Below, one piece after another: positions 2,994 through 21,776 of a stretch of DNA of 64,000 bases (the first letter of the stretch is position 1; the number at the start of each line of letters is the position of its first letter). Source of the stretch: Cytobacillus sp. NCCP-133 (GTDB lineage: Bacteria > Bacillota > Bacilli > Bacillales > Cytobacillaceae); NCBI RefSeq assembly GCF_026011715.1, contig NZ_BRVM01000005.1, forward strand, positions 1 through 64,000, given 5' to 3'. The position numbers were made by a program, and so were the translations under genes. Below the pieces are notes generated by a model that saw nothing but the letters and a program-made list of their open reading frames with translations, searched no databases and had not been told where the DNA came from.

Positions 2994-3101
2994 ATAAATT
3001 CGCCTCCTTTGAAAGTTATGTTTCCCGTTAGTATGAACATGGATTGGAAAATCATAATAGGGAAAAATGAGCAAATGCCATTTAGATTATAAGCATATGA
3101 C

Positions 3102-3131
3102 TTTACATAGGATACCGGGGTATATTAAGAT
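3102..3131 (+). promoter_or_regulatory. csoR promoter with CsoR-like operator
   Basis: A -35-like TTTACA (3102) and an AT-rich -10 region flank the near-palindrome ATACCGGGGTAT (3112-3123). This resembles known CsoR sites (TACCC/GGGTAT halves around a GC-rich centre), and its place between -35 and -10 fits repression relieved by Cu(I). Confidence 0.55.
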
Positions 3132-3153
3132 ATTCTTAAAGGAGGCTGATCAA

Positions 3154-3492
3154 ATGGCTTTTGAAAATAATGATGAATTACTGGGTGAGGGCTGCTGTTC
3201 GATTGACTCCGATCGTAAAAGTCACCATTCTGAAAAAGTTAAAAAGAATTTAACCACTCGCTTAAATCGAATTGAAGGGCAGATTCGCGGAATCAAAGGT
3301 CTAATCGCGAAAGATACTTACTGCGATGATGTCATTACACAGATTTCAGCAACTCAATCTGCCTTAAACAGTGTTGCAAAGCTTTTGCTTGAAGGCCATT
3401 TAAAAAGCTGTGTAGTAGAAAGAATCCATGAAGGCGATGATGAAGTGCTGGATGAATTTCTGGTCACTATTCAAAAACTAATGAAAAAATAA
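3154..3492 (+). CDS. csoR: Copper-sensing repressor CsoR
   Basis: This 112-residue protein is a CsoR/RcnR-family all-helical repressor that leaves DNA when it binds Cu(I). The family core (RLNRIEGQIRGIKGLI) is present, and the three copper ligands can be seen as Cys in TYCDDV and the His and Cys of GHLKSC. It has an N-terminal extension with CC and HH residues. The ATG at 3154 follows AAAGGAGGC; the frame is open further upstream but without a ribosome site. It is co-transcribed with copZ, which begins 13 bases after its stop. The operator in its promoter implies autoregulation. Confidence 0.93.
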   Translation: MAFENNDELLGEGCCSIDSDRKSHHSEKVKKNLTTRLNRIEGQIRGIKGLIAKDTYCDDVITQISATQSALNSVAKLLLEGHLKSCVVERIHEGDDEVLDEFLVTIQKLMKK

Positions 3493-3505
3493 GGAGTTGT
3501 TCAAT

Positions 3506-3712
3506 ATGCAAAATGTTACATTAAAAGTCAGCGGCATGTCTTGCGGTCATTGTGTAAAGGCAGTAGAGGGCAGCGTTGGAAACTTAAACGGTGTAGAAAA
3601 TGTATCAGTTGATCTAGATAACGGCCAAGTACAAGTGAAATATGATTCTTCAGCGGTTACACTTGAGCAAATCAAGGAAACAATTGATGATCAGGGGTAC
3701 GATGTCGAATAA
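3506..3712 (+). CDS. copZ: Copper chaperone CopZ
   Basis: This 68-residue protein is a single heavy-metal-associated (HMA) domain with the Cu(I)-binding motif GMSCGHC near the N-terminus and the ferredoxin-like fold pattern of CopZ, ending DDQGYDVE. It carries copper in the cytoplasm and hands it to the ATPase CopA. The start is the ATG at 3506 with AAGGAG upstream; an in-frame start three codons earlier is less likely. It ends in a strong terminator, so copA just downstream needs its own promoter. Confidence 0.95.
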   Translation: MQNVTLKVSGMSCGHCVKAVEGSVGNLNGVENVSVDLDNGQVQVKYDSSAVTLEQIKETIDDQGYDVE

Positions 3713-3724
3713 ATTTACAAGCAG

Positions 3725-3757
3725 GAACGTGTGATTAAATACACGTTCTCTTTTTTT
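3725..3757 (+). terminator. Terminator of csoR-copZ
   Basis: The stem GAACGTGT / ACACGTTC is followed by seven Ts. Confidence 0.85.
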
Positions 3758-3782: not shown

Positions 3783-3811
3783 TTGACATATAGGGTAGAT
3801 GGGTATAGTAT
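3783..3811 (+). promoter_or_regulatory. copA promoter with candidate CsoR site
   Basis: The -35 TTGACA (3783-3788) and a -10 TAGTAT 17 bases later bracket TAGGGTAGATGGGTATAG. Its complement has two TACCC halves, as in known CsoR operators, so copA is probably controlled by CsoR separately from csoR-copZ. The site is less symmetric than the one before csoR. Confidence 0.5.
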
Positions 3812-3856
3812 ATGAGTAGAAATAATTTACTTCACTTAAAGTAAGGAGTGGTATAT

Positions 3857-6292
3857 ATGAGCGATGCAGCATTAAAAGAAGTACAGCTGCCTATCTCAGG
3901 CATGACATGTGCAGCTTGTTCTACACGCATTGAGAAAGGGCTCAATAAGCTCAAAGGTGTCCAGGAAGCAAATGTCAATCTTGCACTGGAAAAAGCATCA
4001 GTCAAATATAATCCCAATGTAATTACAGTTGAGGCATTTGAAAAGAAAATAGAGGATCTCGGTTATGCCGTTGTTACTGAGAAAGCTGAACTTGATCTTA
4101 TCGGCATGACATGTGCTGTATGCTCAGGCCGTATTGAAAAAGGGCTGAATAAGCTTCCGGGAATCAAAAATGCTGTAGTAAATCTTGCTCTTGAAACAGC
4201 CTCTGTTGAATACAATCCAGAACAAACATCTATCCAGGATATGATTAAGAAAGTGGAGGACTTGGGATATCAGGCGAAAGTTAAACAGGATGAAAATCAT
4301 GATCGTGCTGATTATCGGGTAAAGGAAATTGAAAAGCAGAAGGGAAAATTTATTTTTTCTTTAATCCTTTCGATTCCATTGTTCTGGTCGATGGTGGGCC
4401 ATTTTGAATTTACACAGTTTATTTATGTTCCTGAAATGTTTATGAATCCTTGGGTACAGCTTGCACTTGCAACACCTGTTCAATTTTTCATCGGAAGCCA
4501 ATTTTACGTTGGTGCGTACAAAGCAATTAAAAATAAAAGTGCTAATATGGATGTTTTAGTGGCCCTGGGCACTTCAGCTGCTTATTTTTACAGTTTATAT
4601 CAGTCGATTTTGTCCATTGGTACAAATGCACATATGGTAGAACTTTATTATGAGACGAGTGCCATCCTAATCACCTTGATCATTTTGGGTAAATTATTTG
4701 AAGCTCGTGCGAAAGGCCGCTCTTCAGAGGCAATTAAAAAGCTGATGGGACTCCAGGCTAAAACAGCTACTGTGCTGAGAAACGGGGAAGAGATTGAAGT
4801 TCCTCTTGAAGATGTTCAGGCAGGGGATAACATTTATGTTAAGCCGGGCGAAAAGGTTCCTGTAGATGGTGAAATACTGGAAGGGCAATCCGCACTGGAT
4901 GAGTCCATGCTCACAGGTGAAAGCGTGCCAGTTGATAAAACAGCAGGTGACCTCGTCATTGGATCAACTATAAATAAAAATGGCTTCCTAAAGATTAAAG
5001 CAACAAAAGTCGGGAAAGATACAGCATTATCCCAAATCATTAAAGTGGTTGAAGAAGCTCAAGGTTCAAAAGCGCCTATCCAGCGGCTTGCAGACAGAAT
5101 ATCAGGAATTTTTGTGCCTATAGTGGTCTCAATTGCCGTAATTACATTCTTTGTTTGGTATTTATGGGTAAGCCCGGGAGAGTTTGCGGAGGCGCTAGAA
5201 AAGCTAATTGCTGTCCTTGTCATTGCATGTCCATGTGCGCTTGGTTTGGCAACGCCAACGTCTATTATGGCAGGGTCAGGACGTGCTGCAGAATATGGCG
5301 TTCTTTTCAAAGGCGGAGAGCATTTGGAATTAACACATGAAATCACTACGGTTGTTCTTGATAAAACTGGAACGGTCACACATGGGAAACCGGTTTTAAC
5401 AGATGTAGTAGTGGAAGGAAACATGGATGAAAATACTTTCCTTCAGCTTGTGGGCTCAGCTGAAAGACAGTCAGAGCATCCTCTGGCAGAAGCCATTGTA
5501 AAGGGAATAAAGGAAAAAGGAATCGGCCTATTGAATGCTGAAGATTTCAAAGCAATTCCTGGTTATGGGATTTCGGCAAAAGCAGAGGGAAAAGAGCTGC
5601 TAATCGGTACCAGAAGATTAATGCAAAAGTATGACATAAACATTGAGCCAGCAGAAACTAAAATGGTGTCGCTTGAGGATAATGGTAAGACAGCAATGCT
5701 TGTCGCGGTTGATGGACAATACATGGGTATCGTAGCTGTAGCTGATACGGTAAAGGAAACATCCAAACAAGCGATCAAGCGTCTAAAGGATTTGGGACTT
5801 GAAGTGGTTATGTTTACAGGTGATAACAAAAGGACAGCTCAGGCAATTGCCGGTGAAGTCGCCATAGATGTTGCTATTGCTGAAGTTCTTCCAGAAGGAA
5901 AAGCGGACGAAGTTAAGAAGCTGCAAGAACAAGGCAAGAAAGTCGCAATGGTCGGTGATGGCATTAATGATGCTCCTGCACTGGCTGTTGCGGATATTGG
6001 TATGGCTATTGGCACAGGTACAGATGTCGCAATGGAAGCAGCAGATATAACCTTAATGAGAGGCGATTTGAATAGTATTGCAGATGCTATTCTAATGAGT
6101 AAAAAGACGATTAGGAATATAAGGCAAAACCTATTCTGGGCCTTCGCATACAATACCCTTGGAATTCCTGTGGCAGCTTTAGGATTGCTTGCTCCTTGGC
6201 TTGCTGGGGCTGCAATGGCATTCAGCTCAGTATCAGTCGTATTGAATGCTTTGCGCCTGCAAAGAGTAAAATTGAGTGAAAAGAACGGATAA
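3857..6292 (+). CDS. copA: Copper-exporting P-type ATPase CopA
   Basis: This 811-residue P1B-type ATPase pumps Cu(I) out of the cell. Two N-terminal HMA domains carry GMTCAAC (Cys18/21) and GMTCAVC (Cys86/89). The intramembrane metal motif CPC is at about 458-460, the phosphorylated Asp in DKTGT at about 502, and the hinge motif [10 protein letters not shown] near 695. Eight membrane helices are expected. The ATG at 3857 has AAGGAG seven bases upstream; a GTG three codons earlier overlaps that site and is rejected. It is preceded by its own promoter and followed after 27 bases by two small ORFs that may be co-transcribed. Confidence 0.96.
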
Positions 6293-6319: not shown

Positions 6320-6469
6320 ATCAAGAAAAAATGGGCAGGAGCTGCAATAGCATACCTGGTTTTGGTGATGGCGGGGTATACGGTGTATGACACTGTTCTG
6401 GCTGAGCCGGAACAAGAACGGTATAATATGGAAATGGAGAACCATGAGAGTAAGAAGGAAACAGAATAA
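6320..6469 (+). CDS. Small membrane protein, apparent ATC start
   Basis: An open frame of 49 codons follows the very strong site AAGGAAGGAG (6304-6313) at ideal distance, but the codon in the start position is ATC. The product would begin with three Lys and Trp, continue with one membrane helix (about 5-27) and end in a charged tail of about 22 residues, which is a coherent small membrane protein. A CTG two codons upstream is the other start choice. It lies 27 bases after copA and 38 bases before the glutaredoxin-like ORF. I do not recognise the family. Either the start is truly non-standard or the start codon is mutated. Confidence 0.5.
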   Translation: MKKKWAGAAIAYLVLVMAGYTVYDTVLAEPEQERYNMEMENHESKKETE

Positions 6470-6507
6470 CAACAATAAAACTGGTATTCGAAAGGAATGC
6501 TGTTCGA

Positions 6508-6786
6508 ATGAAATTAAACCTCAAGCTTTATATGAGGCCAACCTGACAGGATTGCCAGGCAGCGAAGGATTTCCTTTCGCAGAACAATGTAACTTTTACT
6601 GAAATCGACCTCACAAAAGACCCCCAAAGGGAACAGGAATTAATGAATGCTACAGGCAGCCGTATTGTTCCTGCCTTTCTGTTTGAAAAGAAGAAATGGT
6701 ACGGTGGGACTAAGAAAAAGCATCTGATATGGTTTGAAATGAATCAGGATGAAATAAAAAGGAGTATTGCTGATGATCTATTTTAA
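6508..6786 (+). CDS. Probable selenocysteine glutaredoxin-like protein (TGA at codon 13)
   Basis: Read through one in-frame TGA (6544-6546) this is a 92-residue glutaredoxin-fold protein. The N-terminal strand (KLNLKLYMRPT) is followed by TGA-Q-D-C, exactly where the CxxC active site of glutaredoxins stands, then the helix QAAKDFLSQ, strand VTFTEIDLTKDP, and the cis-Pro loop GSRIVPAFLF. So TGA probably encodes selenocysteine (Sec13-Gln-Asp-Cys16). A hairpin at 6562-6580 sits about 20 bases after TGA with GG at the start of its loop, as in bacterial SECIS elements. The ATG at 6508 has GAAAGGA upstream. It ends in a strong terminator and lies behind copA. If the host lacks selABCD it would instead be a truncated pseudogene. 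Confidence 0.72.
6562..6580 (+). promoter_or_regulatory. Candidate SECIS hairpin
   Basis: Immediately after the in-frame TGA, GCGAA (6562-6566) pairs with TTCGC (6576-6580), leaving the loop GGATTTCCT. The loop starts 21 bases after the TGA and its first two bases are G, meeting the usual bacterial SECIS rules (apical loop 16-37 nt from UGA, a G in its first two positions). GG/CC pairs could shorten the loop, leaving one bulged T. Confidence 0.6.
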
Positions 6787-6790
6787 TAAA

Positions 6791-6822
6791 GCAGAAGGAG
6801 GTTAAGCCTCCTTCTGCCTTTT
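6791..6822. terminator. Bidirectional terminator
   Basis: The stem GCAGAAGGAGG / CCTCCTTCTGC with a T run on the plus side and A run before it closes the copA unit and the convergent gene. Confidence 0.85.
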
Positions 6823-7064
6823 TAGTAGGTCATGTTATCCATTTGATTAAAGTCGCTCGGTTTTGCCCCGTTTGTTCCATGGCAGTTTTCATACATAGCT
6901 TTTAGTTCCTGTCCGGAAAGGTTGGGGTGCATTTCCTGCATATGCGGCTTCAGCTTCCCGAAGTTAAAAAGTCCCTCAGGTGATTCGTCCCCAGCTGCTA
7001 GTATGGCAGTGCCTGAACCAAGAATAAGGGAAACAGAGAATATTCCGGCAATGAATTTTTCCAT
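6822..7064 (-). CDS. Small secreted protein, unknown
   Basis: An 80-residue protein with an N-terminal signal peptide (hydrophobic stretch about 5-22, likely cleavage after ILAAG or nearby). The mature part of about 55 residues contains LKPHMQEMHPNLS and MYENCHGTNG, with a single Cys followed by His. I know such short exported proteins from other Bacillus genomes only as uncharacterised. The ATG at 7064 follows AGGAGTG. It is monocistronic, convergent with the glutaredoxin-like ORF and divergent from the nrdAB riboswitch. The CH/MH residues could bind metal, but this is not shown. Confidence 0.75.
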   Translation of the reverse strand: MEKFIAGIFSVSLILGSGTAILAAGDESPEGLFNFGKLKPHMQEMHPNLSGQELKAMYENCHGTNGAKPSDFNQMDNMTY

Positions 7065-7239
7065 TTTGAATCACTCCTTTATGTTCTGGACCCTTATGTT
7101 ACATCGTAATTGTCGAGAAAATATCGAGGAAGATTGAACTAAATGTGAAATGTTTCCTCCAAAATAATTGTAATCTGATTTTCTGTATGATAGAATTACC
7201 TACAATATATTGTGTTATTTAAGTGATTGAAAACTACAT

Positions 7240-7430
7240 ATGGATCGTGATTGGCGTCCTTAAAGGACTTAATAGGGAATCCGGTGAAAATCCGGAGCTG
7301 TCCCCGCAACTGTAAGAGCAGACGAACAAAGCATGCCACTGTACAAGACGCTTTAAGGCGCTTGTATGGGAAGGGCTTTTAGTAGATTGAAGCACAAGCC
7401 AGGAGACCTGCCAAGGCGATCGATAGTTTC
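7240..7430 (+). promoter_or_regulatory. Cobalamin riboswitch (aptamer)
   Basis: The region has the conserved adenosylcobalamin aptamer core GGGAATCCGGTGAAAATCCG then GAGCTGTCCCCGCAACTGTA (7275-7314) and the B12 box AGCCAGGAGACCTGCC (7397-7412). GATCG and CGATC segments near the ends can form the closing P1 helix. About 170 nt of expression platform follow, ending in an intrinsic terminator just before the nrdA ribosome site. Confidence 0.93.
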
Positions 7431-17545: not shown

Positions 17546-17684
17546 AAAAAATAGGAAGGAAGACTCAATTTCCGTATAACAGAACACTTGTTCGTCTAAA
17601 AAGATAAGGATGTGTTATACTAGAGAGGCAATGGGAGTTTCTCAAGGGTGGTCGGCTAGCCCCATGTGAAAGGGGGTGATGCCT

Positions 17685-17780
17685 TTGACAGTTTTCGAAT
17701 CGATCATGATGATGATTTCTTTTTCTAGTCTGATCATTGCTGTCATGACTTTTAACCATAAAAAATAGACCTCCCTTGAT
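17685..17780 (+). CDS. Holin-like type I toxin
   Basis: A 31-residue peptide starting MTVFESIMMMISFSSLIIAV is nearly all one membrane helix and ends with a short tail (FNHKKIDLP). This is the form of the putative holin-like toxins of Firmicutes, related to TxpA and BsrG, which damage the membrane when over-made. The start is taken as TTG at 17685, eight bases after GGGGG; an ATG two codons earlier is too close to that site. The strong stem at its 3' end and the structured region beyond fit a convergent antisense RNA antitoxin. Too short for normal ORF calling. Confidence 0.7.
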
Positions 17781-17806
17781 CTGATAATTGAGGGAGAGGT
17801 CTATGT
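17767..17806. terminator. Bidirectional hairpin at the toxin 3' end
   Basis: TAGACCTCCCT and AGGGAGAGGTCTA pair into a long stem spanning the toxin stop codon. Such stems are shared by toxin mRNA and antisense RNA in txpA/ratA-like loci. Confidence 0.65.
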
Positions 17807-17883
17807 CTTTGACAGGCCGATCCCCTAAGGGAACGACTATTGCGAATGACCGTGGGTGCGGCAACACCTGCGGTCGTTTTTTC
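17781..17883. ncRNA. Candidate antitoxin RNA region with terminator
   Basis: Downstream of the toxin lies a structured, gene-free block ending in the hairpin GACCGTGGGTG / CACCTGCGGTC plus TTTTTT (17847-17883). It is conserved in style with regions next to holin-like toxin genes. The antisense promoter itself was not identified, so strand and ends are open. Confidence 0.45.
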
Positions 17884-21193: not shown

Positions 21194-21211
21194 AATAAGC
21201 AATATATCGAT

Positions 21212-21484
21212 CGGCAATGACAAAGAGTAGTAACTGCTGTTGAAGCTAAAGAGAGCTGATGGTTGGTGCAAATCAGTGCGGATGCAGAAGTGAATGGACT
21301 TTCGAGCCTCCAAACCGAACCTTTTTTAAAGCTGTAGGCTTTGGCGAACAGTCTCATCGTTACAAGGGACAGATATTTAAGCGGTTATCCGTTTTGATAT
21401 CTGTTAAAGTGAGCTGAATTTCAGCTAATGAAGGTGGCACCACGGGTTTCTCGTCCTTTTTAAGACGGGAAGCCCTTTTTGTTT
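21212..21484 (+). promoter_or_regulatory. T-box riboswitch 1, tRNA-Trp
   Basis: A full T-box leader: an AGTA-containing stem I, the specifier region GAATGGACTTTCGAG with TGG (Trp) at 21295-21297, the T-box AAGGTGGCACCACGG at 21431-21445 and a competing terminator (GGGTTTCTCGTC / GACGGGAAGCCC, T run). Uncharged tRNA-Trp would stabilise the antiterminator. Confidence 0.92.
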
Positions 21485-21511
21485 TAAAAAACTTTATCAC
21501 TTTAAATCGTT

Positions 21512-21776
21512 AAACAAGAGGAGTAGATTGATTTTTATCCGTTCCAGAGAGCCGGGGCAGGTGGAAACCCGGTACGGAAAATCAATCGAATGGACTTGCG
21601 AGAGGCTTCTTGAATCCAGTAGGGAAGCACGGATTTCCGCCGTTAAAAGGATAGGGTATCGACTTTATTCTGTACCCGAAAGAGGGAGCAGCTTTATGCT
21701 CTAAAAAGAGGTGGCACCACGGTCATGAGATACGTCCTCTATACACACAATTTCTGTGTTGTATAGGGGACTTTTT
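21512..21776 (+). promoter_or_regulatory. T-box riboswitch 2, tRNA-Trp
   Basis: A second complete T-box follows at once: GAGTAGATTGA near the start, specifier GAATGGACTTGCGAG with TGG at 21591-21593, the T-box AGGTGGCACCACGG at 21709-21722, and the terminator GTCCTCTATAC / GTATAGGGGAC with six Ts. Both must be open for trpE to be read. Confidence 0.92.

Follow-up and report, generated by a model that had tools for sequence, protein, structure and literature searches.

Glutaredoxins that carry selenocysteine (Sec) in the active site are a described kind of selenoprotein. In Table 1 of PMC13188914, within the portion of that paper available to us, a Sec-glutaredoxin with the PF00462 domain and a UxxC motif is listed as experimentally verified, and Sec-containing glutaredoxins are also found in the accessible text of PMC9312934 and PMC1794560. 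The available part of PMC9312934 divides selenoprotein subfamilies by domain together with Sec motif. The UXX-star families (NF041212, NF041211, and NF047338) likewise comprise small glutaredoxin-like selenoproteins, for which a role of Sec as a metal ligand has been suggested, and Sec has been predicted in a CopZ-like 2Fe-2S protein, a cation ATPase, a mercuric transport protein, and SO_0444-type Cu/Zn efflux (PMC13188914, in the sections available). The window analyzed here, a stretch of 64,000 nucleotides from Cytobacillus sp. NCCP-133, contains an ORF that is very probably an intact gene for a Sec-containing glutaredoxin, broken by a stop codon in appearance alone. Its product shares the PF00462 domain and the UxxC motif with the verified Sec-glutaredoxin, which we take to come from Clostridium sp. 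OhILAs (Alkaliphilus oremlandii), and by the rule of domain plus Sec motif, as set out in the available part of PMC9312934, it is a member of this known kind. It differs from the UXX-star proteins in being a UxxC protein with a resolving Cys, and from the metal-transport selenoproteins, which belong to other families, in that the Sec protein here is a redoxin encoded beside a CopZ and a CopA, neither of which contains an in-frame TGA in the window. A search by titles and the beginnings of abstracts, with the subscription literature mostly outside its reach, found no paper on a Sec-glutaredoxin of copper operons in the Bacillales, nor does the main text of the deep-Sep paper (PMC12013277) hold a match; judged by those titles and abstract openings, neither the Bacillales branch nor its association with copper operons features in the literature looked at.

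A first-pass annotation of the window had described the ORF as a glutaredoxin with TGA in place of the first active-site Cys. The ATG at 6508 opens twelve codons, MKLNLKLYMRPT, followed by the TGA and then by QDC, just as described, and the frame is open to its end apart from that TGA; the count of sense codons after QDC needs correction from 77 to 76, with a TAA stop at 6784-6786 (Table 1). When the TGA is read as Cys, the translation matches the PF00462 Glutaredoxin model at 4e-15 (56.2 bits against a cut-off of 22.9), in agreement with the proposed identity, and the TGA falls on the first Cys position of the CxxC motif, where relatives carry either TGA or Cys. An AlphaFold2 model with Cys substituted for Sec has a confident thioredoxin/glutaredoxin fold (mean pLDDT of 87.2), and the structural matches listed for it at E <= 0.001 are mostly thioredoxins and glutaredoxins, including cGrx1 and cGrx2. 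Among solved structures, the closest in sequence is 7c10, 'dithiol cGrx1', presumably the clostridial Sec protein named above, and the five best structures by fold include both 7c10 and cGrx2 (4tr0/4tr1). No NCBIfam model reaches its cut-off for the window protein. Membership was rejected for the YruB-family glutaredoxin-like proteins (TIGR02196, 55.2 bits against 88.55) and for the UXX-star families (NF041212, 46.1 against 66; NF041211, 39.7 against 100; NF047338, 38.2 against 97), and 16 members of alignment A1 match the same kinds of NCBIfam model as the window protein does.

Table 1. Features of the probable copper operon and its surroundings, in window coordinates
Feature	Position	Strand	Basis or remark
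csoR, copper-sensing repressor	3067..3492	+	PF02583, 3e-28
copZ, copper chaperone, start probably ATG 3506	3497..3712	+	NF033795, 112.9 bits, cut-off 91
Terminator-like hairpin after copZ	3724..3749	+	terminator scan
Promoter-like TTGACA-17-TAGTAT	3783..3811	+	two spacer G-tracts, possible CsoR operator
copA, copper-exporting P-type ATPase	3848..6292	+	TIGR01511, 628.7 bits, cut-off 397
Small ORF, 49 codons from ATC	6320..6469	+	expression presumed
Possible Shine-Dalgarno AAAGGA	6491..6496	+	predicted from sequence
Sec-glutaredoxin gene	6508..6786	+	92 residues including predicted Sec at 13, UQDC motif
Putative Sec codon UGA	6544..6546	+	Sec decoding predicted
Putative SECIS hairpin	6562..6580	+	bases 6562-6569 pair with 6573-6580 in the conserved helix
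Terminator, stem of 12 pairs followed by a run of T	6791..6817	+	terminator scan; would end the copA transcript before nrdAB
Cobalamin riboswitch before class I ribonucleotide reductase operon nrdA-nrdB	7235-7428		112.6 bits

The Sec machinery on which this reading depends is complete in the NCCP-133 genome (4.3 Mb in 62 contigs, 99.96% complete). The tRNA-Sec scores 58.3 bits against an Rfam cut-off of 47, and SelA, SelB, and SelD reach 559.7, 388.6, and 422.3 bits against curated cut-offs of 267.9, 242.25, and 125, respectively. The selD gene (C18:27521-28447) itself contains one in-frame TGA, within GGUGCKIG, followed by a hairpin with the loop UGA; from these features it is a probable second selenoprotein gene, and it is therefore likely that the genome holds at least one other selenoprotein gene besides the one in the window. 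Formate dehydrogenase is not a further candidate, as none of its nine matches in this genome has an internal TGA (one has a TAA), and KCU-star has no match there.

It is clear from the relatives that the TGA is not peculiar to this strain. Among 151 genomes around and including that of the window (the relatives set), there are 29 family matches at E <= 2.2e-11, 21 with TGA and 8 without a stop. TGA (18 loci) or Cys (7 loci) occupies one shared codon in all 25 aligned loci, in the context RPx(U/C)xDC in 22 of them (the exceptions are L034, L035, and L036), and no second stop is found in these loci from 10 codons before that codon to 71 after it. The alignment thus yields the Sec/Cys exchange in intact frames that the first-pass annotation had named as a supporting check, and places the window gene in a family with TGA (predicted Sec) and Cys versions at one codon. 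In a survey of the order (397 genomes, threshold E <= 1e-14), 46 genomes match, 21 with the TGA form and 25 without, TGA forms being counted from in-frame stops, which for eight TGA rows without loci was the sole basis. selA exceeds its cut-off in 181 of these 397 genomes and in 113 of the 151 in the relatives set; it is present in 21/21 TGA-form vs 11/25 Cys-form genomes of the order survey (Fisher p = 1.9e-5) and in 18/18 vs 3/7 of the relatives set (p = 0.0028), where both values are uncorrected for kinship and the two sets share genomes. A search of the phylum gave matches in 26 of 398 genomes, of which 24 lie outside the order and are all distant, with 50-63 bits and an end at model position 62-80 of 86; 10 of these 24 rows have TGA, counted by stop. 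What sets the Bacillales family apart from these outside matches is an extended segment between its last strands, a motif resembling IGFExN, and its copper operon context. On the best tree, which is poorly resolved (86 rows and 93 columns, with six loci dropped as duplicates and 31 of 80 loci, distant or partial, excluded), there are at least five changes between Sec and Cys, only two of which are forced by starred branches.

A hairpin downstream of the TGA had been proposed as a SECIS element, with the stem GCGAA/TTCGC and a loop opening with GG. The stem is present and begins at the 16th base after the TGA (15 bases between), and RNAfold extends it to seven pairs, one of them G-U. The loop fares less well: the favored hairpin has the loop AUUUC and, taken alone, -7.6 kcal/mol, vs -3.2 kcal/mol for an open nine-base loop starting with GG. 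The bSECIS model of PMC13188914, as given in the available text, calls for a stem of 4-16 bp, a distance of 16-37 nt between UGA and loop, a loop of 3-9 nt with G in one of its first two positions, and a minimum free energy of at most -7.5. Stem, distance, and energy of the window hairpin fit; the loop is atypical, the G being absent from AUUUC, and the G rule, which the family consensus loop GUU fits, is matched in the window only by the open nine-nucleotide loop, at a cost of about 4.4 kcal/mol. Single-sequence folding was rejected as proof of a SECIS, as the window hairpin is no more stable than its shuffles (z = -0.29, with 68 of 200 as good).

The evidence for the SECIS is its conservation across relatives rather than the folding of the window hairpin alone. 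In 18 Sec rows (16 distinct), the eight-pair helix is paired in 96.9% of cells, vs 43-74% for slid versions, and two of its pairs show changes on both sides. The percentage paired and the covariation score were reached by none of 500 shuffles, the both-side changes by 30, and the number of further pair types by 45. The seven Cys rows are 55.4% paired, like their slid versions (25-57%), yet they too beat most shuffles in covariation, with only 2 of the 500 attaining their score; kinship therefore feeds these scores and can by itself carry them far. A wider set, which leaves out one further row later resolved as Sec, gives the same picture: all seven counted pairs are kept in 21 of 22 Sec rows (five in the remaining one) but in none of 63 Cys rows (range 2-6). 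Codon use in the hairpin is constrained as well. A Leu codon in the stem is CTT in 21/21 distinct Sec sequences vs 6/52 Cys sequences, all of which encode Leu, so the pressure that has frozen CTT in the Sec forms is on the RNA; a Glu codon is GAG in 20 of the 21 distinct Sec sequences. The hairpin is thus kept with the TGA and has decayed in the Cys forms. The window copy is the only one of the 21 distinct Sec-form hairpins with GAT for GAG and without the apical-loop G (position 6570 is T), and like one other row it does not form the top pair, 6569/6573. Sec insertion may be weaker in the window copy than in its relatives, because a G at the start of the loop is available only in the costly nine-base loop.

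The gene lies behind a copper resistance locus, and the first-pass annotation had suggested a role in copper stress. The true start of csoR is probably further in than the table gives, because the domain covers residues 59-137. According to the part of PMC3902906 available to us, the operators of CsoR are pseudopalindromes with G-tracts in them, and the promoter hexamers before copA, together with the two G-tracts between them, are conserved across an alignment of the window with four relatives, although a promoter scan of the region was not above chance (9 sites vs 11.0 expected); the terminator scan gave 9 terminator-like sites vs 3.3 expected in shuffles. Both in the window and in the four relatives closest to it, copA stands directly upstream of the Sec-glutaredoxin gene, with only the small ORF between them, and in the window no terminator separates the two. 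By position, the gene is probably the last of a copA operon controlled by CsoR, and a copper-induced transcript that carries copA together with the glutaredoxin is likely. Among 21 neighborhoods of about ten kilobases (16 Sec and 5 Cys), CopA is encoded within about 5 kb in 8/16 Sec-form and 5/5 Cys-form regions; any tested copper-operon gene is nearby in 10 of the 16 Sec-form regions, and the other six are in different settings. A separate scan recovered 50 Cys-form loci, one of them a partial match and the other 49 full; almost all are labelled as Bacilli, and some come from genomes shared with the relatives set. The scan's pattern contained Cys and therefore finds Cys forms only, so its copper count is silent on Sec forms. 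In 48 of these loci, CopA is encoded no further than about 6 kb away (upstream in 36, downstream in 12), and an upstream CopA ends within 80 bases of the glutaredoxin match in 25 of the 50, vs CopA near 1 of 30 loci of distant glutaredoxins in the same scan, which are shorter on average and from other phyla. Also near the 50 Cys-form loci are a repressor that we label CopY-like by assumption (26), CsoR (19), an anchored protein that we call His-rich (22; two examples have no Pfam match), a nitrite/sulfite reductase domain protein (13), and a multicopper oxidase (9), with several of these last matches weak. The copper-stress role is accordingly supported at the level of gene context.

Other explanations of the TGA have to be weighed against Sec decoding. 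If an ordinary glutaredoxin gene had suffered a random nonsense mutation or been misread in sequencing, the result would be what is seen in the window on its own, a single in-frame stop in an otherwise normal ORF. The stop recurs, however, in 21 of the 29 family matches of the relatives set, always at one shared codon in the 18 that were examined, and 21 genomes of the overlapping order survey have it too; the hairpin is tied to it, and selA is found in every TGA-form genome of both sets. We regard such an accident as extremely improbable, and the machinery, the Sec/Cys exchange, and the hairpin bear out the earlier preference for a selenoprotein over it. Next to no weight can be given to read-through of the UGA as tryptophan or by a near-cognate tRNA either: it would be compatible with a frame open on both sides of the UGA, yet the seven examined relatives without TGA all have Cys and none Trp, the genome has the complete Sec machinery, and the TGA form is tied to selA. 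It is also conceivable that the family is a true selenoprotein family that is decaying in this strain, with the apical G lost and mostly a 12-residue stub made. The G is indeed lost uniquely in the window hairpin, the nearly invariant Gly75 is replaced by Trp, and the ATG of the small upstream ORF is gone, so that some loss of constraint in NCCP-133 is possible; against outright decay, the frame is fully open to its end, the seven-pair stem is kept (with its one G-U pair), and dN/dS between the window gene and four orthologues, computed over the 9 codons ahead of the Sec codon and the 77 behind it, is 0.12-0.15 (a rough ratio, because dS is near or above 1), in line with purifying selection and similar to the values among the four orthologues themselves (0.11-0.16 in five pairs, 0.33 in one). 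We consider decay unlikely.

The alternative that concerns function rather than decoding is that the protein is a Sec-containing NrdH-type donor for the adjacent ribonucleotide reductase, without a special copper role. The first-pass annotation had also pointed to nrdAB as a sign of a role in thiol supply. nrdA starts about 870 bases downstream of the Sec-glutaredoxin gene, the NrdH model picks up the 16 members of alignment A1 at E <= 0.001, the glutaredoxin fold is common to both proteins, and the GFE motif near the C-terminus of the window family is reminiscent of the SGFRP of NrdH. The operon differs, however. The gene has its own terminator, which is followed by an ORF on the opposite strand and by the cobalamin riboswitch, and an operon link to nrdAB was rejected on these grounds. 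NrdA is encoded near only 5 of the 21 regions, those of the window and its four closest relatives, which form one close clade, and the window protein scores 37 bits against a cut-off of 85.75 for NrdH redoxin (TIGR02194), so that membership in that family was rejected as well. The proposed connection to nrdAB is therefore not supported, and a role as an NrdH-type donor seems improbable.

Our preferred explanation, held with considerable confidence, is that the ORF is an intact selenoprotein glutaredoxin with a UQDC active site, in which Sec is inserted with the help of SelB and the hairpin; it would probably be transcribed with copA and reduce thiols oxidized by copper. In this scheme, SelB and tRNA-Sec would decode the UGA as Sec, aided by the hairpin just downstream, to give the 92-residue glutaredoxin-fold protein, and its gene would probably be co-transcribed with copA from the CsoR-controlled promoter, so that the protein would be made at high copper. 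In the cytosol, the selenol would then reduce disulfides or other oxidized thiols caused by copper, for example at the copper-binding CxxC motifs in CopZ and CopA, and the protein would be recycled by the thiol system of the cell; we infer Sec insertion itself, copper induction, the substrate, and the electron donor from the features described above. A bolder proposal, which we regard as doubtful, is that selenium contributes actively to copper resistance in these Bacillales, in that the selenol of the redoxin handles copper itself. It might strip or reduce copper on the thiols of CopZ and CopA or, alternatively, pass electrons to the nitrite/sulfite-reductase-like protein that adjoins it in many copper operons. 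If this were true, copper tolerance would depend on the supply of selenium.

The family also has implications for genome annotation. In seven plasmid records, 80% or more of the query finds a match, and four records with the Sec form were inspected. The annotated CDS of NZ_CP015507 begins directly after the UGA, shorter fragments called hypothetical are annotated in NZ_CP107028 and NZ_CP033045, and NZ_CP097350 has no gene at the site in the PLSDB table, which is incomplete. Three of the four records thus have fragments that start after the UGA, and one lists no gene in that incomplete table. Beyond this annotation gap, the gene represents a likely job, besides SelD, for Sec decoding in ordinary Bacillales and a testable link between selenium and copper detoxification, and the occurrence of Sec and Cys versions in near relatives amounts to a natural experiment on what a redoxin gains from selenium.

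Several further observations were made along the way. Some Sec-form copies (L170, L173, and L177) have a two-component system and a DUF2269 protein as neighbors and no copper genes nearby, and in two of these genomes that copy is a second one, on a plasmid; such copies possibly serve another role. A copY-like-copA-glutaredoxin locus lies on a contig labelled Segetibacter koreensis, yet its glutaredoxin row does not differ from the one of Staphylococcus equorum, and this locus is likely to reflect assembly contamination or recent transfer. The small ORF between copA and the Sec-glutaredoxin gene encodes one hydrophobic segment and an acidic tail, possibly a membrane peptide, and its N-terminal segment resembles, by eye, the anchors of multicopper oxidases and His-rich proteins of other cop operons; it starts with ATG in four relatives, whereas the window has AAG there, which leaves an ATC preceded by a Shine-Dalgarno-like sequence as a possible start. 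The product of the small ORF on the minus strand (6822-7064), between the Sec-glutaredoxin gene and nrdA, has a signal-like N-terminus and no Pfam match. Elsewhere in the window, there is an Rfam match (17628-17872, 93.9 bits) to BsrG, which we take to be a type I toxin-antitoxin RNA, and two tandem T-box leaders occupy 21208-21742 (129.2 and 127.1 bits).
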